From a virus: 23,541 bases of DNA. The stretch spans positions 1 through 23,541 of the IMG/VR virus record IMGVR_UViG_3300020202_000473. One strand, given 5' to 3'. The position numbers were made by a program, and so were the translations under genes. Below are positions 968 through 17,726 of the stretch, piece by piece; position 1 is the first letter of the stretch; every line of letters starts with the position of its first letter. Below the pieces are notes generated by a model. The model saw nothing but the letters and a program-made list of their open reading frames with translations, was not told where the DNA came from and made no database searches.

Positions 968-1945
968 GTGGCTGATACCTACCTTGTTACGGGCGGCACC
1001 GGCTTTCTTGGGTCCGCCATCACTAAGCATCTCCTCGCAAGCGGCCACAAGGTAAGGGTTTATGCTCGCAATGAGCATTCGCATGAGGCTCTAGAGAAGT
1101 CCATTCCGGAGGAGCTGAAGCCTAATCTCTCCTGCTTGCTTGGGGCGGTTGAGGATTTGCCTAGACTCCTCAAGGCTATGCGTGGAGTTACTTGCGTAGT
1201 CCATGCCGCCGCTCAGAAGATTGTGCCCTTAGCGGAATACGATCCTGGGAGCTGCATCAGTACGAATGTCCAAGGCAGCAGGAATGTAGCGGACGCCTGC
1301 CTGAGTAGTGGAGTGAGGCGAGCTGTCCTTGTCAGCACAGACAAGGCCAGTTCACCAGCAACGCTCTATGGAGCTAGCAAGCTCTGCGCGGAGAGAGCGT
1401 GGCTGGCAAGCAATAGGTACTCAGCGGGGAGTGGAACGGAGTTTGTCGCCTGTAGGTACGGCAACGTCTGGGCCTCTAAAGGAAGCGTTCTAGAGGCTTG
1501 GTTAGCGTCGGCAACCAGGGGTATTTCACTCAAACTCACCGATCCGAGGTGTACTCGCTTCCATATCCACAGAGGGGAAGCGGTAGAGCTGGTCCTGAAC
1601 GCCTTGCGCCATGCCAGCCCTGGGGAGCTGTGGATCCCCAAGCTACCCACCTACCGGATTGGGGATCTCTGCATGGCCTTCCGCAAGGTCTTTGACATCC
1701 CCAGTCAGCCGGAAGTGATTGGGCTACGCCTGGCGGAGAAGCTGCATGAAGACTTGATCTCTCCTCATGAGTCGATTGCTTGCAAGGCGCAGGAGCAGGA
1801 CAAGTACGTGCTTGAGCCTGGACGCATTCACGACAAGGGGGGATGGGGGTACAGCTCTGGCACGCCGGGAGAGACATCGAAGACGCATCGCATGAGTGTT
1901 GAGGAGTTGATTGGAGAGGTGAAGACGTGGAGGGAGAACGAGTGA
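968..1945 (+). CDS. pseB: PseB-type NDP-sugar 4,6-dehydratase (extended SDR)
   Basis: 325 residues, about the family length. The Rossmann motif GGTGFLG is at 9-15. S123-T124-D125-K126 followed by Y134-x3-K138 is the catalytic signature of PseB/FlaA1-type UDP-GlcNAc 4,6-dehydratases, where Asp and Lys replace the usual second Thr/Glu. Downstream, KLTDPRCTRFHI, GELWIPKLPTYRIGDL and GLRLAEKLHEDLIS match the PseB blocks (TDERMTRFWI, GEIFVPK, G.R.GEKLHE). The known reaction is dehydration and C5 epimerisation of UDP-GlcNAc, first step of pseudaminic acid synthesis; the exact substrate here is inferred. Start is GTG at 968, with AGAGGA 10 bases upstream. First gene of the operon, with its own promoter at 895-923. 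Confidence 0.85.
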   Translation: MADTYLVTGGTGFLGSAITKHLLASGHKVRVYARNEHSHEALEKSIPEELKPNLSCLLGAVEDLPRLLKAMRGVTCVVHAAAQKIVPLAEYDPGSCISTNVQGSRNVADACLSSGVRRAVLVSTDKASSPATLYGASKLCAERAWLASNRYSAGSGTEFVACRYGNVWASKGSVLEAWLASATRGISLKLTDPRCTRFHIHRGEAVELVLNALRHASPGELWIPKLPTYRIGDLCMAFRKVFDIPSQPEVIGLRLAEKLHEDLISPHESIACKAQEQDKYVLEPGRIHDKGGWGYSSGTPGETSKTHRMSVEELIGEVKTWRENE

Positions 1946-2166
1946 CTGTAGCCCTCCTATGCCTAGCGGCATACATCCTGGTTGACGTTGTGATGCTGTT
2001 TATCCTAGCCCGCCTTGAGAGGCGTGGAGGACGTGGGTGGGTGGCCCACTGGCTTCCGACGTCTGTAATGCTCTGCTGCTTTGGCTTATGGCCCTTGGCC
2101 CTCATGGGCCTTCCGGCGTTCCTGCTAGGCGCTCTCTACGACATCTTCAGGGGGAAGCATGGGTAA
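1942..2166 (+). CDS. Small two-helix membrane protein
   Basis: 74 residues from GTG 1942. This start is preferred over GTG 1927 because GGAGGGAG lies about 8 bases upstream and because GTGA overlaps the stop of the dehydratase gene, typical of coupled translation. Two hydrophobic segments are visible, roughly residues 3-23 and 43-66, separated by a basic loop (RLERRGGRG). The end overlaps the next gene (ATG at 2159). No family is recognised. Its place inside the sugar operon suggests a membrane-linked role in surface modification, but this is only context. Confidence 0.6.
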   Translation: MTVALLCLAAYILVDVVMLFILARLERRGGRGWVAHWLPTSVMLCCFGLWPLALMGLPAFLLGALYDIFRGKHG

Positions 2167-2914
2167 GACGTTCGTCATTTGCGAGGCCGCCTGTACTTGG
2201 CTTCATGCTGGCCTGGAAGGGGCTTACAGGTCTATTGAAGCCGCTAAGAAGTGCGGGGCGGACGCGTGGAAAACTCAGTATTGCTCCGATCCAGAGGAGA
2301 TGCACCGGCGAAGAGGCATTCCAGGGAATCACTACTCCCGCCTGGCGTGGCCCAAGGAATGGCATGAACAGCTCGCCGCTAGGTGCAGGGAGTATGGGAT
2401 TGAGTACATCTGCACGACGTTCATTCCGAAGGACATTCCCATAGTCGCTCCGCATGTCTCGCGGTTCAAGGTGTCAGCATTCGAGACCAAGAGCGGAGAT
2501 GACCTGTCCTTCGTCAAGGCCCACAAGAAGTACAAGAAGGAAGTCATTGCCAGCACGAACGGGAGCGATTGTCTAGCTGAGACGATTGGCGACAGTGAAT
2601 GGCTCAAGACCTTGCGTTGTGTGTCAGAGTACCCGACACCTCTAGAGAAGTTGGGCCTATCCAGGATGCTGCCGCAGGAAGACTCGATACTTGGGCTGTA
2701 TGTTCCGTATGACGGCCTCTCCGACCACACCACATCTCTGCTGACCGGCGCTGTAGCTGTCGGCGCTGGCGCACGGATCTTAGAGAAGCACGTCCGCATG
2801 GTGGACACTCCCAGCTCTGACCCCGACTTCGGGCATTCCCTGCTCATGGAGCTGAGGGATTGCGAGTTATCCCGCTACGTGGACAACGTGCGGGAGGCGG
2901 AGCGCATGCTATGA
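2159..2914 (+). CDS. NeuB/PseI-type nonulosonic acid synthase, TIM-barrel domain only
   Basis: 251 residues. The family condenses phosphoenolpyruvate with a 6-carbon amino sugar to make sialic, legionaminic or pseudaminic acid. Recognisable blocks: VICEAACTW then EAAKKCGADAWKTQ (28-40), the substrate-binding strand RFKVSAFET (102-110), CVSEYPTP (154-161), GLSDHT (186-191), ILEKHV (207-212) and DPDFGHS (221-227). Family members usually have about 330-350 residues because a C-terminal antifreeze-like SAF domain closes the active site of the partner subunit; here the chain stops after the barrel and no SAF-like ORF follows. It may be a single-domain variant or act with another protein. It overlaps both neighbours by a few bases. 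Confidence 0.8.
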   Translation: MGKTFVICEAACTWLHAGLEGAYRSIEAAKKCGADAWKTQYCSDPEEMHRRRGIPGNHYSRLAWPKEWHEQLAARCREYGIEYICTTFIPKDIPIVAPHVSRFKVSAFETKSGDDLSFVKAHKKYKKEVIASTNGSDCLAETIGDSEWLKTLRCVSEYPTPLEKLGLSRMLPQEDSILGLYVPYDGLSDHTTSLLTGAVAVGAGARILEKHVRMVDTPSSDPDFGHSLLMELRDCELSRYVDNVREAERML

Positions 2915-3168
2915 CCGAGATCCTTGGCTACATGCAGCTTGGGAATGACTGCTGCGGCTATCCGTTCGGGGAGCTGCGGGACGCCTCTAAGCTCGATGAA
3001 GCCATAGAGGACATGAAGGATCAGTGGTGGATGGCTCCCTTCGTCGTGTTTTACCGCAAAGACGGAGTCTTCTTGTGCGAGCAGATCCACTCCGAGCCAG
3101 ACAATGGCAAGGACTACCAGAGGCACATCGACTACGTCCGCTCCCGCATCAAGGAGCTTTCCGTATGA
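2911..3168 (+). CDS. Unknown 85-residue protein in the sugar operon
   Basis: Start ATG 2911 overlaps the stop of the synthase gene (ATGA); GGGAGGCGG lies upstream at 2892-2899. The product starts MTEILGYMQLGNDCCGYPFG, has an aromatic stretch DQWWMAPFVVFYRKDGVF, and ends in a charged helix. No signal peptide or membrane segment is seen, so a small alpha/beta soluble protein is likely. I recognise no family. Lying between synthase and aminotransferase genes, it could be an accessory factor; it is far too short to be the missing UDP-sugar hydrolase or a typical SAF domain match. Confidence 0.65.
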   Translation: MTEILGYMQLGNDCCGYPFGELRDASKLDEAIEDMKDQWWMAPFVVFYRKDGVFLCEQIHSEPDNGKDYQRHIDYVRSRIKELSV

Positions 3169-4259
3169 CCTGGCCCATGTACTCGGAGAAGTGCAGGAAG
3201 GCCGTGGATGCCCTGCTCCGGAAGGGTGGAAGCCTCAGCGCCTATCGCGCGAATCCGCAAGTAGGAGTAGAGCCGAGAGAGGGGAGTTATGCCTGGCGTC
3301 TGGAGCGAGAGATCGAGCGGCGGTTCCGAGTTCGTCACGCGGTGGCTGTTAACTCAGGCACGGCGGCGCTTCATTGCGCATTGGCGTCTCTACGTCTCCA
3401 GAGAGGGGATCAAGTCATTACGTCTCCCTTTACATTCTCTGCTACCGCATCGGCTATCGTGCTTGCTGGAGGTACTCCAGTCTTTGCCGACGTCGATCCC
3501 TACACCTTCAACATCACCCCGGAAACGGTCAAGCCGCTCATCACGAAGAAGACGAAAGCCATCCTCCCGGTCAGCCTCTTCGGTGGAATGGCGGACGTTC
3601 ATGGCCTCCAGGCATTCGGCCTCCCGGTAGTGGAGGATGCCTGTCAAGCGGTAGGGGCACGCAATCAGCACGGCTACGCCGGTACGCATGGGCTTGCTGG
3701 CGCTTACAGCATGAACGGGGGGAAGAACGTCCCGGCAGGGGAGTGCGGCGTCATGGTGACGAATGACGCCGACGTCGCCCTCCGTGCCCGCTACCTCATG
3801 AACCACGGGGAGAACTTCCACCAGAAGGAAGTAGGGCTCAACTACAGGCCCAACGAAGTGACGGCGTGCATTGCCTATCACGGCTTGCTGGAGCTGGAGG
3901 AGAGGAACCAGAGGCGCAAGGACTTGGTGAGAACGCTGGAGGACTCTTTCGGTTTACTCCCCAGAGCGTCATGGGATGAGCATGTGTGGTACGTGTACCC
4001 CTTTCGCGTTAAGCGGGGGACGCGAGAGCGGTTCTGTAAGCTCATGGCAAAGCGCGGCATCCCCGTAGGTGCTGGGTACCTCACTCCGCCTCTGCACAAG
4101 TACCCCGCCTTCCGTAAGTACGCCCGTGGACCTCTGCCTGTGGTTGAGGAGCTGTCCTCCAAGACCCTCTGCATCCTCTCGACGCTCACCCCGGATAAGC
4201 CGCTGTCCTATGCGCGAAAGGTGGCGAAGGCGATGAGGGACAGCCTATGCGAACGGTAA
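3165..4259 (+). CDS. DegT/DnrJ/EryC1 family PLP sugar aminotransferase (PseC-like)
   Basis: 364 residues from ATG 3165, which overlaps the preceding stop (ATGA). Members transfer an amino group from glutamate to a keto-sugar nucleotide. Visible motifs: VNSGTAALH (62-70, cofactor phosphate binding), DQVITSPFTF (82-91), FADVDP (107-112), VEDACQAVGA (156-165, with the PLP-pyridine aspartate D158), and SMNGGKNVPAGECG (182-195) with the Schiff-base lysine K187. The C-terminal part contains HVWYVYPFRV and GIPVGAGYLTPPLHKYPAF, usual for the family. In a pathway with a PseB-type dehydratase it would aminate the 4-keto sugar. Length is normal. A longer in-frame extension to 3024 overlaps the previous gene and is rejected. 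Confidence 0.88.
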   Translation: MTWPMYSEKCRKAVDALLRKGGSLSAYRANPQVGVEPREGSYAWRLEREIERRFRVRHAVAVNSGTAALHCALASLRLQRGDQVITSPFTFSATASAIVLAGGTPVFADVDPYTFNITPETVKPLITKKTKAILPVSLFGGMADVHGLQAFGLPVVEDACQAVGARNQHGYAGTHGLAGAYSMNGGKNVPAGECGVMVTNDADVALRARYLMNHGENFHQKEVGLNYRPNEVTACIAYHGLLELEERNQRRKDLVRTLEDSFGLLPRASWDEHVWYVYPFRVKRGTRERFCKLMAKRGIPVGAGYLTPPLHKYPAFRKYARGPLPVVEELSSKTLCILSTLTPDKPLSYARKVAKAMRDSLCER

Positions 4260-4966
4260 TCGCAATACAGGCACGTCTCGCATCCACGCGCCTTCCGCGC
4301 AAGATCCTCTCCGACATCTGCGGCAAGCCCATGCTGTCCCAGATCGTGCGGAGGTGTAGGGCTGTCCCGAATGCGGATGCTGTAGCCATCGCTTGCCCCG
4401 AGAAGGATTCGGAAGTCATCTTCCGTGCCACGGGGATGTTCCCCATCACTGGCCCGGAGGATGACTGCCTCTCCAGGCTTCTCAACGTGGCGGATGAGTT
4501 GGAGGCGGATAAGCTGGTGAGGGTCACTGGAGATTGCCCGCTCATCCCTCCGGATCTCATCCGTGCCGCTATCGAGACGGCGACGAAGGACAAAGCCCTG
4601 CCGCTCGTTCAGAACTGGCGTCCGCGCACGTTCCCCGATGGCTTTGATTTTGAGGTCTGGGACGTGCCGCTTCTCCGCAAGCTCTCCATGCGGCTCACGA
4701 GCGAGAAGGATCGCGAATACTTCTCCCTCTGGGCGCTCAACAACAAGCTTGACAACCACTCCATGCGAAACCAGGGGACGGATTTCTCCCGGATGCGCTT
4801 CACGGTGGACTATCTGGAAGACCTGGAAGTGGTGCGAGCCATCTACGAAGAGATGGGAGATGAAGTCTGGGGGGCCAATCTCGTCGTCCAGTGGGGCATG
4901 ACGCATCCGGAGATCATGAAGAAGAACGCGAAGCACGTGAAGGACTTCGGGGAGACGGTGGGATGA
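4247..4966 (+). CDS. SpsF/PseF-type cytidylyltransferase (CMP-sugar synthetase family)
   Basis: 239 residues from ATG 4247, overlapping the aminotransferase by 13 bases, with GAGGGA upstream. IQARLASTRLPRKIL (7-21) is the nucleotide-binding signature of SpsF/KdsB/NeuA-like enzymes. GPEDDCLSRL (69-78), TGDCPLIPPDLI (94-105), PDGFDFEVW and RFTVDYLEDLEVVRAIYE complete the SpsF pattern. The inferred job is to activate the nonulosonic acid as a CMP-sugar for transfer. SpsF genes in bacteria commonly sit beside NeuB, DegT and GNAT genes, as here. The sugar specificity cannot be read from sequence. Confidence 0.82.
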   Translation: MRTVIAIQARLASTRLPRKILSDICGKPMLSQIVRRCRAVPNADAVAIACPEKDSEVIFRATGMFPITGPEDDCLSRLLNVADELEADKLVRVTGDCPLIPPDLIRAAIETATKDKALPLVQNWRPRTFPDGFDFEVWDVPLLRKLSMRLTSEKDREYFSLWALNNKLDNHSMRNQGTDFSRMRFTVDYLEDLEVVRAIYEEMGDEVWGANLVVQWGMTHPEIMKKNAKHVKDFGETVG

Positions 4967-5508
4967 CGTTCTGCAAGGGAGAACTCTGCGAGCTTCGGCC
5001 TCTTGACCCAGAAGACGAAATGCAAGTGGGCACGTTCACGGACTACGTGAATCGCGGGCTCACCACGCAACACCTTTTCACCGGCTCCATCCCAATGAGG
5101 ACGAAGGACTATCAGCAGAAGTGGGCGGCGGAGCTGAAGGCGGGGGAAATCCTCTTCGGCATTTGGGTGGACGACCGCTTCATCGGCACCTGCGGCCTCC
5201 ACACCCATCGGGACATCTATAAATCCTGGGAGTTTCGCATCCTGATCTTCGATCCCGAGTTCATCGGGAAGGGGATCGGTGCTGAGGCCACCAGGCTCAC
5301 CGTAGATTACGCCTTCAGTCGCCTCAACGCTCATCGCGTCTGGCTTGGGGTCAACGAGGAGAACAAGGGAGCGGTGAAGTGCTACGAGAAAGTCGGCTTC
5401 AAGCACGAAGGCACGCTCAGAGACGAGATCTTCGTCTTCGGTCATTACGTGAACGCTCTTCGTATGGGCATCCTTGAGAATGAGTGGAGAGAGATGTATG
5501 CGCGTTAG
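4963..5508 (+). CDS. GNAT-family N-acetyltransferase (PseH-like position)
   Basis: 181 residues from ATG 4963 (ATGA overlap with the previous stop; GGGGAGACGG upstream). Acetyl-CoA binding is shown by the loop GKGIGAEA (102-109), and the RimJ/RimL-type C-terminal block by NEENKGAVKCYEKVGFKHEG (131-150). An N-terminal LRPLDPED is also typical. PseH, which acetylates the 4-amino group of the sugar intermediate, belongs to the same RimL-like group, and the gene sits where pse/sps clusters carry PseH/SpsD. The context favours a sugar substrate; protein acetylation remains possible. An upstream in-frame ATG at 4891 lies inside the previous gene. Confidence 0.8.
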   Translation: MTFCKGELCELRPLDPEDEMQVGTFTDYVNRGLTTQHLFTGSIPMRTKDYQQKWAAELKAGEILFGIWVDDRFIGTCGLHTHRDIYKSWEFRILIFDPEFIGKGIGAEATRLTVDYAFSRLNAHRVWLGVNEENKGAVKCYEKVGFKHEGTLRDEIFVFGHYVNALRMGILENEWREMYAR

Positions 5509-5866
5509 TAGCGCAAATGCCGCCAGGGTGCGGGAGTACTTTCGTGAGTACTACTACGTCAAGCGCGATCGCCAGACGGACGAACAACGCGAGCGTCGCA
5601 ACGCGGCAGCCAGAAAGAGGTACTCCGCTAATAGAGCCAAAGCCCTTTCGCACGCCTCGCGTATGCGCATAATCCACGCGGATAAGTACAAGGCTCGGTA
5701 CGCAGTCAGAAACGCTTTGAGGAATGGCGTGTTGAAGCGCCTGCCGTGCTCCTCGTGTGGAGCGGAGAATGCTGAGGCGCACCACGAAGACTACTCTAAG
5801 CCTCTTTCCGTGGAATGGCTGTGCAGGAAATGCCATGGCCTTAGACATAGGAGCCGCCATGCCTAA
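5498..5866 (+). CDS. HNH endonuclease
   Basis: 122 residues from ATG 5498 (GTGGAGAGAGATG upstream), overlapping the acetyltransferase gene. The N-terminal half is a basic helical region rich in Arg (VREYFREYYYVKRDRQ, RERRNAAARKRYSANRAKA). The C-terminal nuclease motif has C84-x2-C87, AHHEDYSKPL with H95-H96, then WLCRKCH with C109, C112 and H113, and H117: a zinc-stabilised HNH fold common in phages. It interrupts the sugar operon in phase and with overlaps, so it may be a free-standing homing-type nuclease that joined the operon. It does not fit the sugar pathway. Confidence 0.85.
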   Translation: MRVSSANAARVREYFREYYYVKRDRQTDEQRERRNAAARKRYSANRAKALSHASRMRIIHADKYKARYAVRNALRNGVLKRLPCSSCGAENAEAHHEDYSKPLSVEWLCRKCHGLRHRSRHA

Positions 5867-6548
5867 GCATCGCCTCCTCATCGTCGGCGCGGGCCGGATA
5901 GGAGCCGCCTTTCGCTGGCACGACTCCGCGTACACGCACGCGGGAGCAGCGAGGATGCTGCATGACCGCGTGGAACTCGTCGGCTTTGTCGAGCCCAACC
6001 CGGAAAGGGCGGATGAGGCGGAGCGCAAGTGGAACGCGACCGCCTACGAGAGCCTCCAAGAAGGGCTTACGTCCTCTCAGCCCGACATCGTATCGGTCTG
6101 CGTGCAGCCGGAGGACCAGATCGCGGTGATGGCGGCGCTTGAACACGCGGACATGGTGCGCGGCATCTGGTGCGAGAAGCCGTACATGGGTTTCCCGTCA
6201 AAGAAGCGTGTTCAGGTGAACTACTTGAGGCGGGCGGACGCGCGGCACCAAGCCATCGCCGCCGAATCCGGCCGCGCTCGGAAGCTCATCGTCTACGGGA
6301 AGGACGACATCCACACCCGCTGCCATTTCGAGGATCTCCGGAAGTGGTGGGAGTGCGAGCTGGACTATCGCGTCTTCAACGGCCCGTGCGCCTACGCGCT
6401 CGTCTACCCCCACGCGGGAGAAGACGCCTTCTTTGACAATGGCGGCCTCAGGGATCCTGGCCACTGTATGGCCCGCATGCTCGGCAACCTCCTTAACGTC
6501 CTTGACGGCTACGAAAACAAGCTCTGGAGCCCCGCCGATGCTGCTTAA
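5859..6548 (+). CDS. Short Gfo/Idh/MocA-family NAD(P)-dependent oxidoreductase
   Basis: 229 residues from ATG 5859, with AGGAG 5 bases upstream, overlapping the HNH gene by 8 bases. The Rossmann motif IVGAGRIG is at 8-15, VELVGFVEPNPERADEAE (38-55) gives the second strand, PDIVSVCVQPEDQ (75-87) the fourth, and WCEKP (104-108) is the family's Lys-Pro signature. QVNYLRRADARH (119-130) matches the region leading into the C-terminal domain, and GGLRDPGHCMARML (195-208) keeps the histidine position of the active site. Typical length is 320-370, so the substrate domain is compact. Related enzymes act on sugar nucleotides or sugar acids; here a late oxidation or reduction of the sugar is inferred from the neighbours. 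Confidence 0.78.
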   Translation: MPKHRLLIVGAGRIGAAFRWHDSAYTHAGAARMLHDRVELVGFVEPNPERADEAERKWNATAYESLQEGLTSSQPDIVSVCVQPEDQIAVMAALEHADMVRGIWCEKPYMGFPSKKRVQVNYLRRADARHQAIAAESGRARKLIVYGKDDIHTRCHFEDLRKWWECELDYRVFNGPCAYALVYPHAGEDAFFDNGGLRDPGHCMARMLGNLLNVLDGYENKLWSPADAA

Positions 6549-7818
6549 AGTCCCCGACGAATTCGCCTCTAGCGTCAAGTCGCTTCTCCTCTACGCCGGT
6601 CCTCCGCGTGAGGATGAGTGCGAAGGCATCGAGGCCCTCAAGAAAGAGGGTGGGAAGGTCATCTTCTTCCTGACGCCTGAGGAGAAGAAGGTCTACACCC
6701 TCAAGCCTGACGAAGCCGGAGTGACGTGGGAGAACGACGCGCTCCTTCAGAAGTGGCTCATGGAGAACATGGCGATTTGGACGGGCGGGCAGATCGGTGG
6801 CTCTAGCCGGGAGAAGGCCAGCCAGTTCGCGGCGGTGCTAGGGGAGGTCATCAACCTCACCAACTTCGACACGCGGAGCCTGGAGTTTCTCTCCAAGGAC
6901 AACGAGCCCGCGAGGAACATCTACAGGAACTACCGCTGGGTGGAAGATGGGATTCCGCTCCGACGCGCGAAGGGCATGGGGCAAAACGCCGTCGTCTTCA
7001 TCGTCGCGGCCGGGCCGTCCCTCAACAAACAGTGGGAGACGCTCGCCCGGATTCAGCGCGAACGCGCCGACACGACCTTCATCGTCTGTGGCCGTAGCTA
7101 CGCCCGCGCTATGGAGGCCGGAATCATCCCTGACTTTGTGGTGGAAGTAGAGCAGTTCGAGTGGAACGACCGAATCTTCATGTTCGCCCCGAAGCCGCAC
7201 CCGACGACCATCCTTTGCGCCCCGCTCACGGCCTGTCCCGGCGTCATGTCCGCGTGGCCCGCCAGGCGCATGATCCTCATGGATCACAACATGGCGCAGT
7301 TCATGAAGCTGGAGTTGGGAACCGACAGCATCGACGGCGGGAACTCCATTCTCCACCACATGTTCAACCTCGCGATGTTCCTTGGCTCCACGAATGTTGT
7401 TCTGGCTGGCGCGGATCTATCGTATCCTCCCGGCTCGACCGACACGCACGCGGACGGGACCTTCCCGGCCTGGCCTCGGCCGATTCTCGTCGCGGAGCAT
7501 AACCGCCAGGAGCCGCTCATGCTTCCATCGACGGACGGCAGCATGGTCGAAGCCTCACAGCCCTACAAGAATTTCTGCCTCTTCCTGGAGATGCAGATCG
7601 CCACGCACAGAAAAGCCAAGCCCGTGCTTCGGGTCTACAACGCCTCAGCGCACGGGCAGAAGATCGAAGGCACGGAGTTTAAGGAACTCACGGAATGGCT
7701 TACGCCCTTATTGCCTGCGCCATCATCCTCGCCGCCGCCCTCGTCTCCGGAGTCTTCTTCTTCGTCGCCGGAGTCGGGGTCTATCTCTTCTTTGAGCGCC
7801 TCTACGGCCAGCGCTTAG
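6538..7818 (+). CDS. DUF115/Maf-type protein, probable nonulosonate transferase
   Basis: 426 residues from ATG 6538, overlapping the oxidoreductase gene by 11 bases. The core matches the MAF_flag10/DUF115 (MptE-like) fold: VVFIVAAGPSLNKQ (152-165), FIVCGRSYARAMEAGIIPD (181-199) with FVVEVEQ next, and NVVLAGADLSYPPGSTDTHA (286-305), like the family's GQDLAY...H block. Maf proteins of Aeromonas, Campylobacter, Magnetospirillum and others are needed to put pseudaminic or legionaminic acid on flagellin, so its place after a nonulosonate operon is telling. The last 33 residues are almost only Ser, Pro, Glu, Ala and Gly and are encoded where the next gene starts in another frame. Related archaeal MptE enzymes are pyrophosphokinases, so transferase activity is inference. 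Confidence 0.75.
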   Translation: MLLKVPDEFASSVKSLLLYAGPPREDECEGIEALKKEGGKVIFFLTPEEKKVYTLKPDEAGVTWENDALLQKWLMENMAIWTGGQIGGSSREKASQFAAVLGEVINLTNFDTRSLEFLSKDNEPARNIYRNYRWVEDGIPLRRAKGMGQNAVVFIVAAGPSLNKQWETLARIQRERADTTFIVCGRSYARAMEAGIIPDFVVEVEQFEWNDRIFMFAPKPHPTTILCAPLTACPGVMSAWPARRMILMDHNMAQFMKLELGTDSIDGGNSILHHMFNLAMFLGSTNVVLAGADLSYPPGSTDTHADGTFPAWPRPILVAEHNRQEPLMLPSTDGSMVEASQPYKNFCLFLEMQIATHRKAKPVLRVYNASAHGQKIEGTEFKELTEWLTPLLPAPSSSPPPSSPESSSSSPESGSISSLSASTASA

Positions 7819-8036
7819 TCTGGGAGCGTCAGAAGGCGTTTGAGGCGGGGATTCGCGACGCTAACCTCAAGCACGCGGAGAAGGTCGCGGCTCTTCAGCT
7901 CCCAGCAAACAAGTACGAGATCGAAGAGAACAAGACTTACGCGGAAGGGCTCGCGGGACTCTACCCGCAAGACAGCGAACTCAAGAAGGCGATAGAGGAA
8001 GCCCAGAAGCTCAAAGAAATCGTCGGGGACGCTTGA
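7695..8036 (+). CDS. Membrane-anchored protein with charged helical tail
   Basis: 113 residues from ATG 7695; AAGGA lies 9 bases upstream. Residues 3-33 are strongly hydrophobic (AYALIACAIILAAALVSGVF and a following FFFVAGVGVYLFF), enough for one long or two short membrane helices. The rest is charged and helical (ERQKAFEAGIRDANLKHAEK, SELKKAIEEAQKLKEIV). The first 124 bases overlap the end of the Maf gene in a different frame. The architecture resembles small phage inner-membrane proteins, including i-spanins, but no partner lysis genes are seen nearby, so function is unknown. Confidence 0.65.
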   Translation: MAYALIACAIILAAALVSGVFFFVAGVGVYLFFERLYGQRLVWERQKAFEAGIRDANLKHAEKVAALQLPANKYEIEENKTYAEGLAGLYPQDSELKKAIEEAQKLKEIVGDA

Positions 8037-8061
8037 TTCCGTAGCCCCCATAAGCCATAAT
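8033..8061 (+). promoter_or_regulatory. Candidate promoter of the packaging/head operon
   Basis: TTGATT (8033-8038, 4/6), 17 bases, CATAAT (8056-8061, 5/6). It is in the only gap between the sugar operon and the terminase genes. A start near 8068 would give a leader of about 75 bases that contains the two hairpins described at 8082-8134. Confidence 0.5.
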
Positions 8062-8081
8062 TTTCACTGACGGCATCTCTC

Positions 8082-8142: not shown

Positions 8143-8526
8143 ATGCCGGAGCCCTGCAAGGGGACTAAGAAAGACGGCGCTCCCTGTCCGATGAAGGTCT
8201 ATCGGACTTACGTCACCCCTGGCTACTGCCTAGGCCACGATCCCGGCATCACGCTTGAGATGCGGCAGGCGTTCGCCAAGGGCAAAGGCTTGGCCGGTGA
8301 CGCCACGCTTCGCAACATCCGCCTTCGCACCGTCGATGACATCCTGATTTACGTTGAGGGGCTCATCGACGAGTGGAGGAAGGGGCCTGGGGCCGCCCTC
8401 ACCGTTGAGAACATCGACTCGCTCGCGAATCTCCTTCGCATCCAGCTAGGCGCGATCAAGGAGAAGAACGCCGGGAAGAAGGGGGCGAAGAAGGAGAAGC
8501 CCGAAGGCTGGAGGGAGGTTGGGTGA
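8143..8526 (+). CDS. Zinc-finger protein, candidate small terminase subunit
   Basis: 127 residues, ATG 8143 with GGAGAGAG upstream. The N-terminus has C5, C15, C29 and H32 (PCKGTKKDGAPC ... GYCLGHDP), a short zinc-binding module found in many phage and bacterial proteins. The middle (LRTVDDILIYVEGLIDEW, then VENIDSLANLLRIQLGAIKE) looks like two helices of the kind seen next to terminases. The C-terminus is Lys-rich (KEKNAGKKGAKKEK). It lies directly before the large terminase with GTGA stop/start overlap, the usual place of terS. The small-subunit role is inferred from position; no classical TerS sequence motif is recognised. Confidence 0.6.
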   Translation: MPEPCKGTKKDGAPCPMKVYRTYVTPGYCLGHDPGITLEMRQAFAKGKGLAGDATLRNIRLRTVDDILIYVEGLIDEWRKGPGAALTVENIDSLANLLRIQLGAIKEKNAGKKGAKKEKPEGWREVG

Positions 8527-10052
8527 TCGCCCTCCTCGCTCTCATGCTTAATTGGGAGCGCCTCTTCGATCCCGAGGGGATGCCGTCGCCCCTCCAGAAG
8601 GCGTACATCGAAGACTGCGTCAACCCGCAGTATCAGTACGTCGCCGCCTCCTGCGGCCTTCAGAGCGGAAAGACCTACGCGGAGTGCGACGGCGGACGCC
8701 TCGCCCTCTACGGGCCGCATCCGATCATGCTCCCGGAGAAGATCCGGGGCAAGATCCCGATGGAAGTCTGGCTCATCAGCCGGAACTACGCCCAGTCGGA
8801 AGTTCTCTTCGACACCTTCAAGAGCCGCACCCCTCCGCAGATTTGGATGTCGGATTCCCAGATCCGCGCGTGGGGTCTCAAGCGCGGCGACAGCCGCACG
8901 CATTGGCTTGTCCCGAGGAAGGGGACGGCGGATCCCTGCCCGATCAAGCTCCTTGTCCGCACGGCCTCCGACCCGGACAGCCTCCGCGCCACGAACAAGC
9001 TCGGCCTCGCCATTTGCGACGAGCTTGCCCACTGGAAGCCGATGGCCTGGAACAACCTTCAGGCTCGCGGCATCGTGGTCAAGACCAAGTTCCTGATCGC
9101 GACTTCGCCCAAGGCCAAGAACTTCTTCTACCGAGGCATCGCCCTCCCGGGCGGCTTCATGACCGGCCAGAAGGGAAGGCATCCGGAGAACGACCCGAAA
9201 ATCGCGCTTCATACCTGGACGTCCGAGGACAACCCGCACGCCGACAAGGACCACATCCAGCGCTTGCGCCGCCTCTTCGGCCGCGAGTATGCCCGCCAGG
9301 AACTGGACGGCATGTTCACGGAGGCGGTCGGCTACGTCTACGGGACGTTCGAGCGCTCCATGATGGTCGAGCCTCCGAGCATGAAGCCGGAGGATTACGA
9401 GACGATCACGGGAGGCGTGGACTTCGGCTGGACGGATCCTTACGCCGCGTGCGTGTGGGGGAAGAGCAAGGCGGATGGGCGCTGGTATCAGCTAGAAGAG
9501 ATCCACGCCACGCAGTCTACGGACGAGGACGTCGCCCCGGAGTTGCTCGCCGCTCAGGCTAAGTGGCAAGTACCCAAGTGGTATTGCGATAAGCGCTTCC
9601 CATCGAACATCTCGCGGCTTCGCAAGCTCGGGGTCCGCGCCTATCAGAACCTCGATCTCCACGCCGAGAACGACAAGCGCACGATCCCCGTCATGCTCGC
9701 GGTCTGCCAGGGCCTCATGCAGAACGACATGATCCGGATCGGCAAGGATCACGAGTGGACGGCGGAAGAGTTCGAGAACTACCACTATCCGGACCCGTCC
9801 GAGGACAACCCGAAGAACACGAACGACATCCCCGTGGACTGGGCCAACCACCACATGGACGCGATGCGCTACGCGCTTTGCTCCGTGGTGGAGCTTCCGA
9901 AAGGCCCCATGCAGTACCAGCGTCGGAGCCGCGACGGGGAGCTTCAGCCGATTAACAAGAAGCCGAGGCCTTTCAAGGTGCCGTCTATCGCGGATTCGCT
10001 CGCCGCTCAGGACCAGACCTGGGAGAAGGAGGCCGCGAACCGTGGAGTTTAA
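8523..10052 (+). CDS. terL: Terminase large subunit (packaging ATPase and nuclease)
   Basis: 509 residues, GTG start at 8523 overlapping the preceding TGA, with GGAGGGAGG upstream. ATPase domain: Walker A-like SCGLQSGKT (43-51) with K50; Walker B LGLAICDE (160-167) with D166 and E167; coupling motif FLIATSP (190-196). Nuclease domain (RNase H-like): GGVDFGWTD with D300, WYCDKRFP with D356, and DWANHHMDAMRY with D446, three acidic metal-binding positions. Length and order are normal. The protein docks on the portal, drives DNA into the capsid and cuts the concatemer. The packaging type (cos, pac or direct repeats) cannot be told from the window. Confidence 0.92.
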   Translation: MIALLALMLNWERLFDPEGMPSPLQKAYIEDCVNPQYQYVAASCGLQSGKTYAECDGGRLALYGPHPIMLPEKIRGKIPMEVWLISRNYAQSEVLFDTFKSRTPPQIWMSDSQIRAWGLKRGDSRTHWLVPRKGTADPCPIKLLVRTASDPDSLRATNKLGLAICDELAHWKPMAWNNLQARGIVVKTKFLIATSPKAKNFFYRGIALPGGFMTGQKGRHPENDPKIALHTWTSEDNPHADKDHIQRLRRLFGREYARQELDGMFTEAVGYVYGTFERSMMVEPPSMKPEDYETITGGVDFGWTDPYAACVWGKSKADGRWYQLEEIHATQSTDEDVAPELLAAQAKWQVPKWYCDKRFPSNISRLRKLGVRAYQNLDLHAENDKRTIPVMLAVCQGLMQNDMIRIGKDHEWTAEEFENYHYPDPSEDNPKNTNDIPVDWANHHMDAMRYALCSVVELPKGPMQYQRRSRDGELQPINKKPRPFKVPSIADSLAAQDQTWEKEAANRGV

Positions 10053-10361: not shown

Positions 10362-11071
10362 TGCCAGCTTACGGATACCGCTGCGAGGAACACGGGGAGT
10401 TCGAGCATTTCTTCAAGACTCTCCCGAGCGAGGCCAAGCAGAAGTCCATGCCATGCCCGGACTGTGATAAGCCCGGAGTGCGGCTTCTCTCGAACTTCAT
10501 GGTGAACGGCACTCAGCATAGCGGGATGGAGGAGGTGACGTCCTTCGCCGCCCCCTCCGCCGACATCGGGGGTCGCCGCCGCCCCGTCTTCCGCGACAAC
10601 AACGGCCAAGTTCACGAAATCAAGACGTCGAAAGACATCGACCGCTGGCGCACGGACAACCGCCTGGGTCCTCCCCGCATGGTGGAGTGGACGAACCCGA
10701 TCACTGGCACGAAGTCCTGGGTGCCGCAGCGGATCAAGATGGTCGCCGGTCCCGACGGGGAGCCTCTCGACGCTCCCGTGGTCCGCGAGCAGGGGAAGAT
10801 CGTCCCTCTCGACAACCACTACGAGCCTCCGAAGGAGAGCCGTAACGGCGTCCCCTTCAACAAAAACGGCGTCTCCGTCCTGAAGGGCCAGGATCCGGGC
10901 CTTCGCCAGCATGGCCGCCCTGTCATCGACCCGACGACCGGGAAGCCCATGAAGATGTCGGACCTGTGGGGAGGCCCGGTCAAGAACCCGGCCGCCGAGC
11001 GCGATCAGGGTACCGTGACCCCTCAGATCCAGAAGGCGATTCTCCCTTCCAAGCTGAAGAAGAATGGGTAG
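10361..11071 (+). CDS. FmdB-like zinc-ribbon protein of the head module
   Basis: 236 residues. The N-terminus MPAYGYRCEEHGEFEHFF ... MPCPDC follows the FmdB/putative regulatory zinc-ribbon pattern (MPxYxYxCxxCG...), with H11 in place of the second Cys; C8, H11, C32 and C35 would hold the metal. The remaining 200 residues are polar, Pro/Gly-rich and charged, with no recognised domain. FmdB-like proteins near terminases and portals are common in phage genomes, of unknown role. It overlaps the portal gene by 8 bases and is probably translated with it. Confidence 0.65.
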   Translation: MPAYGYRCEEHGEFEHFFKTLPSEAKQKSMPCPDCDKPGVRLLSNFMVNGTQHSGMEEVTSFAAPSADIGGRRRPVFRDNNGQVHEIKTSKDIDRWRTDNRLGPPRMVEWTNPITGTKSWVPQRIKMVAGPDGEPLDAPVVREQGKIVPLDNHYEPPKESRNGVPFNKNGVSVLKGQDPGLRQHGRPVIDPTTGKPMKMSDLWGGPVKNPAAERDQGTVTPQIQKAILPSKLKKNG

Positions 11072-12896
11072 CGGAAACTTCGTCTCGGACAGCCTGAAAG
11101 GCGGGGAGGGCCTTGGGTTCCTCCTCACGGCCGGGACTCCCTCCCAGGCCGCGACGCTCTCCGACAGCGACCGCAAGAAGGCGGAGATGCTCTGGGGGAT
11201 GTATCAGGCCGCCCGGAAGTGGAAGGAAGAGTGCGGCCTGGGCTCCGGCGTCTGCCAAGAGCGCTGGGATTTCTGGCGCGGCAAACAGTGGAAGAAGCGC
11301 CGCCCTCAGAACCTCTCCATGTGCGTCATCAACATGACCTACGAGCAGGTGGAAACCTTCGTAGGCACCATCGGGGAGGATCTTCCGGACTCCAACGTCC
11401 TCGCCCGCGAGCCCGAGGACAAAGAGACGGCGGAGATCGCCACAAAGCTCATCAACTGGACGCACGATCTCAACGATCAGCACACGGATGTCGAGCTTCC
11501 GGTGCGCTCGGCGGTCGTGACCGGCTCGGGCTTCCGCCGCGTGGACTGGGACTGGAGTCTGGACGGGAAGCGCGGGGCTCCGCGCCTCACGTTCGTTGAC
11601 GAAGCCTACGTCTTCCTCTCGCCTCATACGAAGAAGGTGCAGGACGCCTCCTACATCATCGAGGCGAAGAACGTCCCCTTGGAAGAGATCCGGAAGCGCT
11701 GGCCGGATCGCGGCTGGGAAGTGCCGGGCGGCGTCTGGGACGGCTCTCTCACGCCCGTCTACGGGCATTCCGGGAACCTCACCACGGGCGGCTCCGGCGA
11801 CGTCGCCGCCTTCACCATTCCCGACGGCACGCAGACGCAGCAGTCGAAGAGCGTTCTCAAGCGCAAAGACAAGCATCTCGCCACGCTCATCGAAGCCTGG
11901 ATCCGGCAGGACGACGGGACGCTTCGCTATGTGGTATGCGCGAACGGGCTCATCCTCCAGGACGACCTTAGCCCTTACGAAGACGACCTCTACCCCTACG
12001 TGGCCTACAACGTCATCCGCAACAAGGACGCCGTCTACGGAATTAGCCTCGTTGAGCTTCTGGAGTCGATGCAGAAGGAGATCAACGAGGTTCACTCCTA
12101 CGCGCTCGACCAGCAGCGCTACGAATCCGACACCCCCCTCGTCGTGAACCGGGAGAACATGGACGAGGCGAAGGTCTTTACCAACGCGGCGGGCAGCGTC
12201 TACTTCGACAACTCCCCGAACGGGAACGGCTACTACCTCCTCTCCAAGCCCGGCGCGAATCCGAAGTGGTTTGACATCGAAGACCGCCTCACGTCCCGCG
12301 CTCGGTCCATCTCGGGCGGCGTGGACATCCTCCACGGCGAGCGGCCCGCTGGCGTCACTACGCTCGGCGGCATGGAGATCATCAAGGAGCAGGCCAACGT
12401 GGTCGTCTCCAAGATGACCAAGCACGTCTTCGCCGCGATCCGCCAGGAAGATCGCCTCATCTTGAACCGCATCAAGCAGTTCATGAGGGACGAGCGCGTC
12501 GTCCGCGTGACCGGCTTGGGCGGCCAGGAAGAGTACGTGACGGTGAACGAGCGGGCCGCGCTCGACGTGAACGGGGAGTGGGAACGCAAGAACACCATCC
12601 CCGAGGACTTCGACGCGGACGTGGACTTCTCGCCCACGCCCCCCGGAGGGTTCCAGGCGAAGCTCGAACGCTCGCTCGCGCTCCTCCAGGCGGGCGTTGT
12701 CGACCCGCAGTACGTGTTGGAAGAGATCGAGGAACCCGTCGCCAAGATCCAGGCGCTTCAGGAGCGCATGGCGGCGGCGCAGAAGCAGCAGATGCAGGCG
12801 GAGATGGCCGCGAAGGGCCAGACCCCGCCTGGGCAAGAGGTCCCGGAAGACGACCCACAGCAGCTAGTCCAGGAAGCGATGAATCTTTTGGCTTGA
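11064..12896 (+). CDS. Portal protein (P22-like group)
   Basis: 610 residues from ATG 11064. Position after terL and before scaffold/capsid, length, and sequence features fit a P22/podovirus-type portal. RWDFWRGKQWKKRRPQNLSM and INMTYEQVETFVGTI are like the N-terminal clip/wing start of these portals, PYVAYNVIRNKDAVYGISLV and ELLESMQKEINEVHSYALDQ like the conserved stem helix region, and RARSISGGVDILHGERPAGV the region before the crown. The C-terminal 100 residues are helical and Gln-rich (RMAAAQKQQMQAEMAAKG), like the barrel extension. It forms the dodecameric DNA gate at one capsid vertex. The first residues (GNFVSDSLKGGEG) resemble a motif in the next small protein. Confidence 0.85.
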   Translation: MGSGNFVSDSLKGGEGLGFLLTAGTPSQAATLSDSDRKKAEMLWGMYQAARKWKEECGLGSGVCQERWDFWRGKQWKKRRPQNLSMCVINMTYEQVETFVGTIGEDLPDSNVLAREPEDKETAEIATKLINWTHDLNDQHTDVELPVRSAVVTGSGFRRVDWDWSLDGKRGAPRLTFVDEAYVFLSPHTKKVQDASYIIEAKNVPLEEIRKRWPDRGWEVPGGVWDGSLTPVYGHSGNLTTGGSGDVAAFTIPDGTQTQQSKSVLKRKDKHLATLIEAWIRQDDGTLRYVVCANGLILQDDLSPYEDDLYPYVAYNVIRNKDAVYGISLVELLESMQKEINEVHSYALDQQRYESDTPLVVNRENMDEAKVFTNAAGSVYFDNSPNGNGYYLLSKPGANPKWFDIEDRLTSRARSISGGVDILHGERPAGVTTLGGMEIIKEQANVVVSKMTKHVFAAIRQEDRLILNRIKQFMRDERVVRVTGLGGQEEYVTVNERAALDVNGEWERKNTIPEDFDADVDFSPTPPGGFQAKLERSLALLQAGVVDPQYVLEEIEEPVAKIQALQERMAAAQKQQMQAEMAAKGQTPPGQEVPEDDPQQLVQEAMNLLA

Positions 12897-13359: not shown

Positions 13360-13550
13360 ACCGCCCTCGACCTGTAGCTCCAGGCACCACAAGCCCTCGG
13401 GCGGGTGCGATTCCGTCCGCGAAACGTGCGGAGATGCTCCGCCAAGGCGCGGCGGGAGCCATGAAAATGCGTGCGCGGTCTAAGGCAGCGGGCAGCTATG
13501 GAGCGGTGAAGCCTGACCCGGGTAGCGGCGATGGAGGCTTCGTGAGCTGA
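13356..13550 (+). CDS. Small basic protein with ARSKAAG motif, unknown
   Basis: 64 residues, coupled to both neighbours by ATGA overlaps. Pro/Ala/Arg-rich and probably disordered; RARSKAAGSYGAV and the end GSGDGGFVS repeat motifs seen in nearby proteins (ARSRAAG; GxFVSD in the portal and the 74-aa protein). No domain is recognised. Shared motifs suggest that these proteins bind the same partner, perhaps capsid or portal. Confidence 0.58.
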   Translation: MNRPRPVAPGTTSPRAGAIPSAKRAEMLRQGAAGAMKMRARSKAAGSYGAVKPDPGSGDGGFVS

Positions 13551-14176
13551 TGGCTCGCCTTCCGGTGTCCGTCCTGGTCCCGCACCAGAAGAAGCGCAGA
13601 CACTTCTTCCTCAATTACTCCCTGCCGTCGTTTTACGCGGCCGGAGCGCTTGAGGTGCTGGTGGACGACTCCGACCGGCATCCCAACGTGAAGAGGAACG
13701 CTCTCGCCCGCAAGGCGAAGGGGAAGTACCTCTTCTTCGCGGACGACGATGTCATCCTCGCGGCGGGAGCCTTGGAGCAGATGCTGACGCGGCTCCGGAA
13801 GGCCAACGCTTCCAACCAGCGAGTCGTCTTCTGCTACGCAGACTCCCACGCCTTTACGTATCCGGGCGCGGGGACCGTATGGCAGGGCTCGCGACGGCTT
13901 ACGCAGCCTTCGTGGGATGAAGACGAGGTTCGCCGCTCCGGAACGATCACGCCCATGTCTCTCATCCTTCGCTCCGCCTTCCCGGGCTTCGATGAGAGCC
14001 TCGGGAAAGGCCACATGTGGGACCTCTGCCTCACGCTTATGGCGCAGAAGCTGCGCGGCGTGAAGGCTCCCGTGGAAGCCTTCCTGCAATTCGACGTGGA
14101 CGACGGCTTGACGAACAACGCCCGCCTGAATGTTCAGCGGGAGATCAAGAAGATCCGCAAGAAGCACGCTTGCTAG
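13550..14176 (+). CDS. GT2-like (GT-A fold) glycosyltransferase in the head module
   Basis: 208 residues, ATGA overlap with the previous gene. VSVLVPHQKK at the start, LEVLVDDSD (34-42), NALARKAKGKYLFFADDDVIL (50-70) and GALEQML follow the GT2 scheme, with D65-D66-D67 as the nucleotide-sugar/metal-binding DxD equivalent. PGFDESLGKGHMWDLCLTLM resembles the acceptor-side block where GT2 enzymes carry a G.xxEDxDL motif, here with WDLC. It is shorter than most GT2 enzymes (230-350) and has no membrane segment. Its place between portal and scaffold is unusual and suggests modification of a virion protein, inferred only from position. Donor sugar unknown. Confidence 0.75.
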   Translation: MARLPVSVLVPHQKKRRHFFLNYSLPSFYAAGALEVLVDDSDRHPNVKRNALARKAKGKYLFFADDDVILAAGALEQMLTRLRKANASNQRVVFCYADSHAFTYPGAGTVWQGSRRLTQPSWDEDEVRRSGTITPMSLILRSAFPGFDESLGKGHMWDLCLTLMAQKLRGVKAPVEAFLQFDVDDGLTNNARLNVQREIKKIRKKHAC

Positions 14177-16038: not shown

Positions 16039-17010
16039 ATGGCGTTTTCTCTGAACACGATTCAGAGCATCACGCAGAACTACATCGCCCCTCAGATCGT
16101 GGACAACACGAGCAAGGGGACGCCGTATGTGTGGTGGCTCAGGGAGAACGGCCGGATCTCCGTGCGCGGGGGTCTGAGCCTTCGTTTCCCCATCGTCAAG
16201 TCTCACCTCAACTTCGACTGGTACTCCGGGATGGATCCGGCGACGCTTGAGGCCCTCGAGCCGTTCACGGCGGCTCAGTTCGAGTGGTACAACGGCCGGT
16301 GCCCCTTCGTCATTCCGGAGGAGGACATCGACAAGAACAACGGTCCCGACGGGATCGTTGACATCGTGGACGCGGTGACGCAGACCGCCTCCGCGACGCT
16401 CATGGAGCAGCTCGCGACGGCCCTCATGGGGTCGAACAGCTCGAACTCGCTCCAGCCGAGCGGCCTTCAGGATCTCTTCGCCGGGACGGGCACGCCTTAT
16501 GGCGGCCTGACGGATACGGACTTCACTTCCCCGGCGACGTGGCTCGCGTCGCGCCTGGACTGCATCACGAACAACGTCCTGACGGCGCTCGACATGCGGC
16601 GGCTGCGTGGCTCGGTCACGCGGGGTCCGTCGAAGCCCAACCTGGGTCTCTGCAACTTCCCGGTCTATGACCGCATCTGGGCCATCGCGCAGAGCAATCA
16701 GCGCTTTGGCATGGAGCGGATCGCGAAGATCGGCTTCGACCACATGATGTTCGAGGACATGGTCATCATGCCCGACGAACACGCGGAAGGCTCGGGCTAC
16801 ACGCAGACGGATAACTGCCTATGGTTCCTGAACACGGACTACATCAAGTTCGTCGTTCACGAGTCCAAGGCGTTCATCAGCCGCGTGTACGCTCCGATCC
16901 CGCAGATCGAAGCCTACATCGGGAAGCTGCTCTTCATGGTGTCTCACGGCACGTCTCAGCGGCGAGCGCACGGCGAGATCGACAACATCGATCCGGCTGA
17001 CGCGAGCTAG
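16039..17010 (+). CDS. Major capsid protein
   Basis: 323 residues, ATG 16039. It starts MAFSLNTIQSITQNYIAPQI and continues with VDNTSKGTPYVWWLREN; the pattern of an N-terminal arm, then a beta-rich domain (SLRFPIVKSHLNFDWYSGMD), an acidic spine helix (VDIVDAVTQTASATLMEQLA) and an axial-domain-like end (DNCLWFLNTDYIKFVVHE, SRVYAPIPQIEAYIGKLLFM) fits HK97-fold capsid proteins. Position after the scaffold and before adaptor genes agrees. The coding sequence is strongly biased to C/G-ending codons, as expected of a highly expressed gene in a GC-rich host. No cleavage site or cross-linking residues can be assigned. Confidence 0.82.
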   Translation: MAFSLNTIQSITQNYIAPQIVDNTSKGTPYVWWLRENGRISVRGGLSLRFPIVKSHLNFDWYSGMDPATLEALEPFTAAQFEWYNGRCPFVIPEEDIDKNNGPDGIVDIVDAVTQTASATLMEQLATALMGSNSSNSLQPSGLQDLFAGTGTPYGGLTDTDFTSPATWLASRLDCITNNVLTALDMRRLRGSVTRGPSKPNLGLCNFPVYDRIWAIAQSNQRFGMERIAKIGFDHMMFEDMVIMPDEHAEGSGYTQTDNCLWFLNTDYIKFVVHESKAFISRVYAPIPQIEAYIGKLLFMVSHGTSQRRAHGEIDNIDPADAS

Positions 17011-17123: not shown

Positions 17124-17726
17124 ATGCCTACTCTTGGTGAAGGGTTTGTCGGGATCAACCCCCCGGCCGCGCGAGTGACGGCGGACGGCGGGATTGACGC
17201 CCAGACGGATTCCTCGCGGAAGAACGCCCCCGGCCAGATCGCGTTCTATCGGGACGCGAAGGGTCGCTGGTCGGCCCTCAAGTACGTTCAGGCGTTCGCG
17301 TCGATCCCCAAGGGCGCGGTCATCACCCAGGTCCACGCCGCCGAGGCTACGACCGGAGGGGTGAGCAGCGCCGGGATCTCGCAGGACCCGAACGTGGTCA
17401 CGGTCGCGTCCATCGGTCAGTTCAACAACCTGACGCCCGCTGGCATCAGCGCGGTGGACGTGAACAACACGGGGTACTGGTTCTGGGCCTACATCGCGGG
17501 CTACTGCCCGGATGCGGCGATGCCCTCGACGTACGCTTCCGGTCAGCCGCTTCGGATGTCGGCCACGTACGCGGGCAGGCTGTCGAGCGCTCAGATCAAC
17601 GCCTCGTTCGCGTGCGTCGGCGCGACCATTCCGATTCGCGCGGTCGCTGTGTCGCTGGGTGCCCATACGGTGTCCACGGCGAACTCGACCAACTCGGTCA
17701 TGATCCAGGGCTGGCTCAACGCCTAG
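17124..17726 (+). CDS. Probable capsid decoration or head-fibre protein
   Basis: 200 residues from ATG 17124, chosen because GGAGG lies 8 bases upstream; an in-frame ATG at 17076 has no such site. The protein is rich in Ala, Gly, Ser, Thr and Val with few charges (VHAAEATTGGVSSAGISQDP, AVDVNNTGYWFWAYIAGYCP, IRAVAVSLGAHTVSTANSTN), typical of an extracellular beta-sandwich. Encoded directly after the major capsid protein and flanked by two strong hairpins, it probably sits on the outside of the head in many copies. No sequence family is recognised. Confidence 0.6.
   Translation: MPTLGEGFVGINPPAARVTADGGIDAQTDSSRKNAPGQIAFYRDAKGRWSALKYVQAFASIPKGAVITQVHAAEATTGGVSSAGISQDPNVVTVASIGQFNNLTPAGISAVDVNNTGYWFWAYIAGYCPDAAMPSTYASGQPLRMSATYAGRLSSAQINASFACVGATIPIRAVAVSLGAHTVSTANSTNSVMIQGWLNA

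Follow-up and report, generated by a model that had tools for sequence, protein, structure and literature searches.

The viral sequence analysed here (hereafter the window) is the whole IMG/VR record IMGVR_UViG_3300020202_000473, a phage fragment of 23,541 bases in which a plus-strand run of genes at positions 968–7818 recalls the bacterial pathways for nonulosonic (sialic-acid-like) acids. Seven enzyme-type genes lie in this run (PseB-type dehydratase, NeuB synthase, DegT aminotransferase, SpsF-type cytidylyltransferase, GNAT acetyltransferase, short Gfo/Idh protein and DUF115/MptE-like glycosyltransferase), together with three further open reading frames (ORFs; 1942–2166, 2911–3168 and 5498–5866), and neighbouring ends overlap by 4–13 nucleotides (nt) throughout. 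Downstream are genes for terminase, a P22/SU10-type portal, a GT2-type glycosyltransferase, a scaffold-like ORF and the major capsid protein (MCP). An earlier note on this DNA had described the seven genes as an operon on one strand with mostly overlapping ends, placed behind a strong promoter and directly before terminase. Profile searches (Pfam and NCBIfam) recovered each gene at its position and in its named family, the overlaps were confirmed, the gene for the terminase large subunit (TerL) starts at 8523, and the promoter stands as a consensus match. The features of the run are as follows.

895–923, + strand: sigma-70-type promoter TTGACA-17-TATACT, 11/12 consensus positions (consensus match only)
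968–1945, + strand: PseB-type NDP-HexNAc 4,6-dehydratase, P0001, 325 amino acids (aa), GTG start (PF02719, 4e-66)
1942–2166, + strand: small membrane protein, P0020, 74 aa (no Pfam family above cut-off)
2159–2914, + strand: NeuB/PseI-family synthase without SAF domain, P0002, 251 aa (PF03102, 3e-28)
2911–3168, + strand: ORF P0021, 85 aa, coupled to its neighbours (no family match)
3165–4259, + strand: DegT/DnrJ/EryC1/StrS sugar aminotransferase dependent on pyridoxal phosphate (PLP), P0003, 364 aa (PF01041, 2e-72)
4247–4966, + strand: SpsF-type CMP-sugar synthetase, P0004, 239 aa (PF02348 CTP_transf_3, 2e-18)
4963–5508, + strand: GNAT N-acetyltransferase in PseH/SpsD-like position, P0005, 181 aa (PF13302, 5e-18)
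5498–5866, + strand: HNH-type endonuclease, P0010, 122 aa (phrog_2340, 7e-23)
5859–6548, + strand: short Gfo/Idh-type NAD(P)-binding protein, P0006, 229 aa (PF01408, 7e-12, Rossmann half only)
6538–7818, + strand: Maf-like (DUF115/MptE-like) glycosyltransferase, P0007, 426 aa (PF01973, 3e-23)

Enzyme families of the sugar operon

For the dehydratase P0001, PseB is the top NCBIfam model (245 bits, under the equivalog cut-off of 408), the closest relative in the PDB is the UDP-GlcNAc C6 dehydratase 2gn4, and the catalytic motifs STDKA and LYGASK are retained in the alignment. The closest PDB relative of P0004 is likewise a cytidylyltransferase (6oew), and P0005 scores higher with a SpeG-like (spermidine acetyltransferase) model than with PseH. 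The earlier note cited the Pse enzymes that make CMP-pseudaminic acid. P0003, however, scores slightly higher with LegC (163 bits) than with PseC (154 bits), both far under their cut-offs, and the solved PseC 2fn6 ranks low. On these scores, pseudaminic acid would be too specific a name for the sugar.

The synthase P0002 yields a confident structural model (predicted local distance difference test (pLDDT) score of 91), whose top fold matches are Campylobacter PseI (8h2c), Neisseria NeuB (1xuu) and a Leptospira synthase (6ncs). It forms a triosephosphate isomerase (TIM) barrel with the metal and phosphoenolpyruvate (PEP) residues kept; one position that is normally Ser is occupied by Ala107. 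Retained are the metal ligands His190 and His211 along with Glu9, Lys38, Lys104 and Asp223. Across 36 phage homologues, His190, His211, Lys38, Lys104, Ser132, Ser188 and Asp223 are invariant and Glu9 is nearly so. The protein terminates 40 residues past the second metal His. The SAF domain of bacterial NeuB supplies an arginine to the active site of its partner, and a Caulobacter NeuB mutant in this arginine is non-functional without induction (PMC7591256). SAF-less NeuB proteins are nevertheless common in phages, with tails of 54–66 residues encoded by most of the NeuB genes nearest to that of the window, and the above-mentioned 6ncs is the solved structure of a sialic acid synthase from Leptospira with SAF-less length (290 residues).

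The run ends with P0007, whose PF01973 core scores 83 bits against a cut-off of 34.6; the same Cst-II-like domain forms the core of Maf glycosyltransferases (PMC11339370). Its predicted structure lies closest to Magnetospirillum Maf 5mu5 (Z 17.0, root-mean-square deviation 3.7, 226 residues aligned), with which Foldseek concurs, followed by MptE/HPPK (Z 12.8) and the sialyltransferases Campylobacter CstII (9.1) and human ST8SiaIII (8.7). At 426 aa, P0007 falls below the three-domain length of Maf and below the family score, its match to the NCBIfam flagellin-modification PseD model reaching 59 bits against a cut-off of 670. Most plausibly, judging from the model, P0007 acts like Maf, being structurally nearest to Maf rather than a mere MptE protein. 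The reading of the earlier note, a phage-encoded route of nonulosonic-acid type with a Maf-like transferase at its end, agrees with both the family matches and this model.

Recurrence of the gene set among uncultivated phages

The earlier note had suggested looking for the same cluster beside terminases in viral metagenomes, and it was found in L197, a 43.1-kb contig retrieved with the window DegT protein as query. This sister phage carries the genes in the same order as the window (PseB-NeuB-DegT-SpsF-GNAT-Gfo-MptE-TerS-TerL), with portal and capsid genes again following terminase. Protein identity across the enzyme genes ranges from 27 to 64% (PseB 59%, NeuB 40%, DegT 64–65%, SpsF 51%, GNAT 61%, Gfo 39% with a 256-aa homologue, MptE-like 27%), compared with 29% for the probable TerS and 42% for TerL, so that several pathway genes are more conserved than TerL. 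Between the two phages third codon positions vary most, and the rate of non-synonymous substitution (dN) is well below the synonymous rate (dS) in every pathway gene tested, although dS is saturated and the ratios are only indicative. Because a second phage retains the gene order with amino-acid changes strongly suppressed, the operon is not a chance assembly. The HNH-type gene P0010 has no counterpart in L197 and is probably a passenger in the sugar run; L197 for its part has extra epimerase-type and ATP-grasp genes. A tyrosine-recombinase-like ORF, recognized by eye just upstream of PseB in the sister phage (L212, 12320–13249), and a RecT-like gene nearby hint at a temperate lifestyle.

More distant carriers emerged from an alignment-based scan, which returned 312 viral contigs with NeuB relatives, 80 of which were read. 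Single-sequence searches had detected no kin of P0002, P0007, P0009 or P0014 among viral contigs and none of P0002 or P0007 in 50,697 phage records; one viral-contig match (L002) was judged a chance match. Two patterns recur. The first (L010, L013 and L017, also L019 and L023) comprises PseB, Gfo/Idh, SAF-less NeuB, GNAT, SpsF and a class-III aminotransferase, and lies upstream of terminase in L010/L011 (Pfam check on L010); it is apparently a second, independent phage version of the pathway. Our locally built SpsF profile also labels class-III aminotransferases of ~400 aa as SpsF, as Pfam showed for two of them.

The second pattern belongs to a large group of uncultivated podoviruses in which NeuB directly precedes TerL and an MptE-like gene lies behind the capsid gene. 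Their capsid and terminase proteins are 27% and 24% identical to those of the window, and the portal is also related. Throughout this lineage (L089–L098 and L099–L178) the order is constant: NeuB, TerL, portal, scaffold-like gene, MCP, decoration-like protein and Maf-like gene. The decoration-like protein, c6, has ~160 aa and is Ser/Thr-rich; neither Pfam nor PHROG has a match for c6 of L089. To avoid circularity, a second set of 80 loci (7 of them contigs already seen) was chosen solely by the MptE-like protein. MCP is present in 74/80 and the c6 gene in 78/80 of these, the distance from MCP end to MptE start is always 261–669 nt, and in the few loci without MCP or c6 the MptE-like gene is near the contig end. 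NeuB precedes TerL in 24/29 loci with at least 1 kb upstream of TerL; in L152, one of the five exceptions, it sits farther upstream. Among sixteen records of 34–40 kb from this set, NeuB and the CTP transferase occur in 15 each, the PseB-type gene in 14, a class-III aminotransferase in 16 and DegT in none. A further cassette follows a fibre-type gene and consists of small membrane protein, PseB, short Gfo/Idh, SpsF, class-III aminotransferase and GNAT; most of the 11 records inspected have it complete or nearly so. A small membrane protein adjoins PseB in the window, and one does so in the podovirus group. Hhalign did not support a relationship between P0006 and the podovirus short Gfo/Idh proteins, and these short forms may therefore be independent shortenings. 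One record of the podovirus group (G048; L195 and L196) is without NeuB, CTP transferase and PseB, but its Maf-like gene is kept, as is a class-III aminotransferase with a weak match; it would either draw on CMP-sugar from the host or be on the way to losing the trait.

Host-derived morons in passing, partly decayed and with no fixed phage role, could in principle account for a run with shortened NeuB and Gfo/Idh genes, a missing PseG, an inserted HNH gene and a G+C content below that of the structural half. Yet all frames are open and overlapping, L197 has the same order under purifying selection, and nearly all members of a phage lineage carry these enzyme classes; conserved synteny already disfavours this explanation, which we consider highly improbable. 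The earlier note had also called such a gene set unusual for a phage, a view overtaken by the terminase-linked sets of L197, L010/L011 and the podovirus group.

As to hosts, an MptE scan of GTDB genomes returned one short contig in an Actinomycetota metagenome-assembled genome and no usable host evidence. Isolate relatives of the MCP (Mx8, BUCT555 and others) have no annotated NeuB or MptE nearby, and for one podovirus member the MptE-like protein was unmatched in isolate genomes and NeuB gave weak matches only. The gene family c14, found near some NeuB genes, was rejected as a pathway member, being a DNA methylase. In a podovirus from Manatee Spring (MW202713; L005, 5592–7998), a DegT-type aminotransferase overlaps TerL with a glycosyltransferase upstream, another terminase-linked sugar gene.

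Proposed pathway and virion target

We propose, with a probability of about 0.55, that the phage makes its own CMP-nonulosonic (sialic-acid-like) sugar and that a Maf-like enzyme puts it on protein, most likely that of the virion. Synthesis of CMP-nonulosonic acid by the operon is well supported; the order of reactions is modelled on known pathways. The PseB-type enzyme would act first, as dehydratase of UDP-GlcNAc, followed by amination by DegT and N-acetylation by the GNAT protein. The nucleotide would be removed by a host or other hydrolase, no PseG being encoded, after which the SAF-less NeuB would condense the sugar with PEP and the SpsF-type enzyme would make the CMP-sugar; the short Gfo/Idh protein may modify an intermediate or product. 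Within the infected cell, P0007 would then attach the sugar to Ser/Thr residues of a protein, for which the capsid or a decoration protein is the likeliest candidate.

Several observations weigh against this proposal. PseG hydrolase (TIGR03590) is absent from the window record and 49 related viral records, with control genomes scoring, and the window being a 23.5-kb fragment the full phage may differ. The SAF domain (PF08666) is absent from the entire window record, Ala107 at a normally Ser position of P0002 is common to the L197 NeuB, and P0006 represents the Rossmann half of a Gfo/Idh enzyme with its 229 aa. The P0007 model has a mean pLDDT of 65, rising to ~90 in residues 150–200, although the core is well predicted. 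Both the window and L197 have their Maf-like gene before terminase and not behind the capsid gene, and P0024, the protein behind the window MCP, has no significant similarity to the decoration-like c6 (probability 0.6%). With the PseG/SpsG hydrolase absent, SAF missing from NeuB and Gfo/Idh reduced to one half, the 'full set' of the earlier note has to be given up. In B. subtilis, spores of an spsG mutant carry strongly reduced legionaminic acid, and those of spsC and spsE mutants lack it altogether (PMC7439481). Since the spsG mutant retains some legionaminic acid, a dedicated hydrolase is possibly dispensable, and a host or other hydrolase may substitute.

The missing PseG and SAF and the unusual Ala107 of this branch would also fit a product other than a nonulosonic acid, with the NeuB-like protein taking another acceptor and the Maf-like enzyme transferring a different CMP-keto-sugar; Maf tolerates CMP-KDO besides CMP-Neu5Ac (PMC11339370). 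We regard this as improbable, given that the fold and the metal and PEP residues are those of NeuB/PseI, that dehydratase, aminotransferase and GNAT form the usual route to diacetamido sugars, and that the solved Leptospira sialic acid synthase is similarly short.

For the acceptor, the earlier note had listed virions, host flagella or another surface structure. Of these the virion is now favoured over flagella, because the related podoviruses carry their MptE-like gene downstream of the capsid gene; the virion as target is suggested by gene position, capsid-linked in the podovirus group and terminase-linked in the window. As the earlier note suggested, such a sugar might hide the phage from defence or from competing phages. 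The CMP-sugar could instead serve the host surface, where modified flagellin, capsule or lipopolysaccharide would block superinfection or alter phage receptors. Bacterial Maf enzymes do act on flagellin (PMC11339370), and phage-encoded enzymes modify pseudaminic acid in the Acinetobacter capsule (PMC12053666). Such a role, the main alternative, nonetheless appears unlikely: the Maf-like gene is coupled to terminase in the window and to MCP and a decoration-like gene in the podoviruses, the window showed neither flippase nor polymerase, and a late operon would probably act late for receptor masking. We offer more tentatively, and as a possibility short of an even chance, that the podovirus lineage, to which the window phage would belong as a distant member with a compact operon, has a self-contained PseG-free route to a new sialic-acid-like sugar with which a capsid-linked Maf coats the phage's own head.

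That flagella and capsules can carry sialic-acid-like sugars is well established. The operon shares with PseBCHGIF of Campylobacter and Helicobacter and with SpsM-C-D-G-E-F of B. subtilis a dehydratase, PLP aminotransferase, GNAT, NeuB-family synthase and SpsF-type cytidylyltransferase, and differs in the absence of PseG/SpsG, a NeuB without SAF, an extra short Gfo/Idh and its location in a phage late operon. With Maf flagellin glycosyltransferases (5mu5) it has in common the central PF01973 domain, the closest fold and companion nonulosonic acid genes, whereas P0007 is shorter (426 versus ~630–670 residues), phage-borne and terminase/capsid-linked instead of flagellin-linked. Mycobacteriophages encode transferases suggested to act on their own capsid, but transferases only (PMC11256854); the window also encodes the donor-sugar pathway, and its sugar would be sialic-acid-like. 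EpaA/EpaB of an Acinetobacter prophage and phage O-acetyltransferases are likewise phage gene products acting on nonulosonic acids (PMC12053666, PMC6586298), but they alter a host-capsule sugar and come without a Maf-like transferase. SAF-less NeuB also occurs in the marine virus AG-345-L05 (MH319754), which has SpsF-DegT-NeuB in a row, and in the huge phage LR756508; both differ in their large genomes, broad sugar islands and lack of a PF01973 match. We found no account in the open-licence literature of phages encoding nonulosonic acid synthesis together with a Maf-like enzyme. If the proposal is true, tailed phages glycosylate their own heads with sialic-acid-like sugars, turning the chemistry of flagellar glycosylation to virion biology. 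Head glycosylation may bear on phage adsorption, aggregation, mucus binding and recognition, and small Maf enzymes with non-flagellar acceptors would be on offer for protein glycoengineering.

Flanking genes and minor features

The genes downstream of the operon, including the two candidate acceptors, are the following.

7695–8036, + strand: ORF with membrane segment, P0022, 113 aa, overlapping the 3' end of the Maf-like gene (no family above cut-off)
8143–8526, + strand: small ORF preceding TerL, probable TerS, P0008 (by position; 29% identical to the L197 ORF in the same place; no family match)
8523–10052, + strand: terminase large subunit, P0009 (phrog_2, 1.5e-30; PF03237/PF17289)
11064–12896, + strand: P22/SU10-type portal, P0014 (PF16510, 7e-33; phrog_156)
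13550–14176, + strand: GT2-type glycosyltransferase among head genes, P0013 (PF00535, 2e-6, over cut-off)
16039–17010, + strand: major capsid protein, P0015, candidate acceptor (phrog_9953, 3e-32)
17124–17726, + strand: protein behind MCP, P0024, 200 aa, in decoration-like position, candidate acceptor (position only)

The GT2-type glycosyltransferase P0013, located between the portal and capsid genes and unmatched in the L197 contig, may be a second sugar transferase. The G+C content rises from ~0.55–0.60 in the sugar operon to 0.62–0.66 in the structural genes, which fits a later gain of the operon. Finally, CTACCTATGGGGGCT-like motifs are repeated in the non-coding stretch at 500–960 upstream of the operon, and a similar stretch at 8030–8080 precedes the terminase genes; both are possible regulatory sites.

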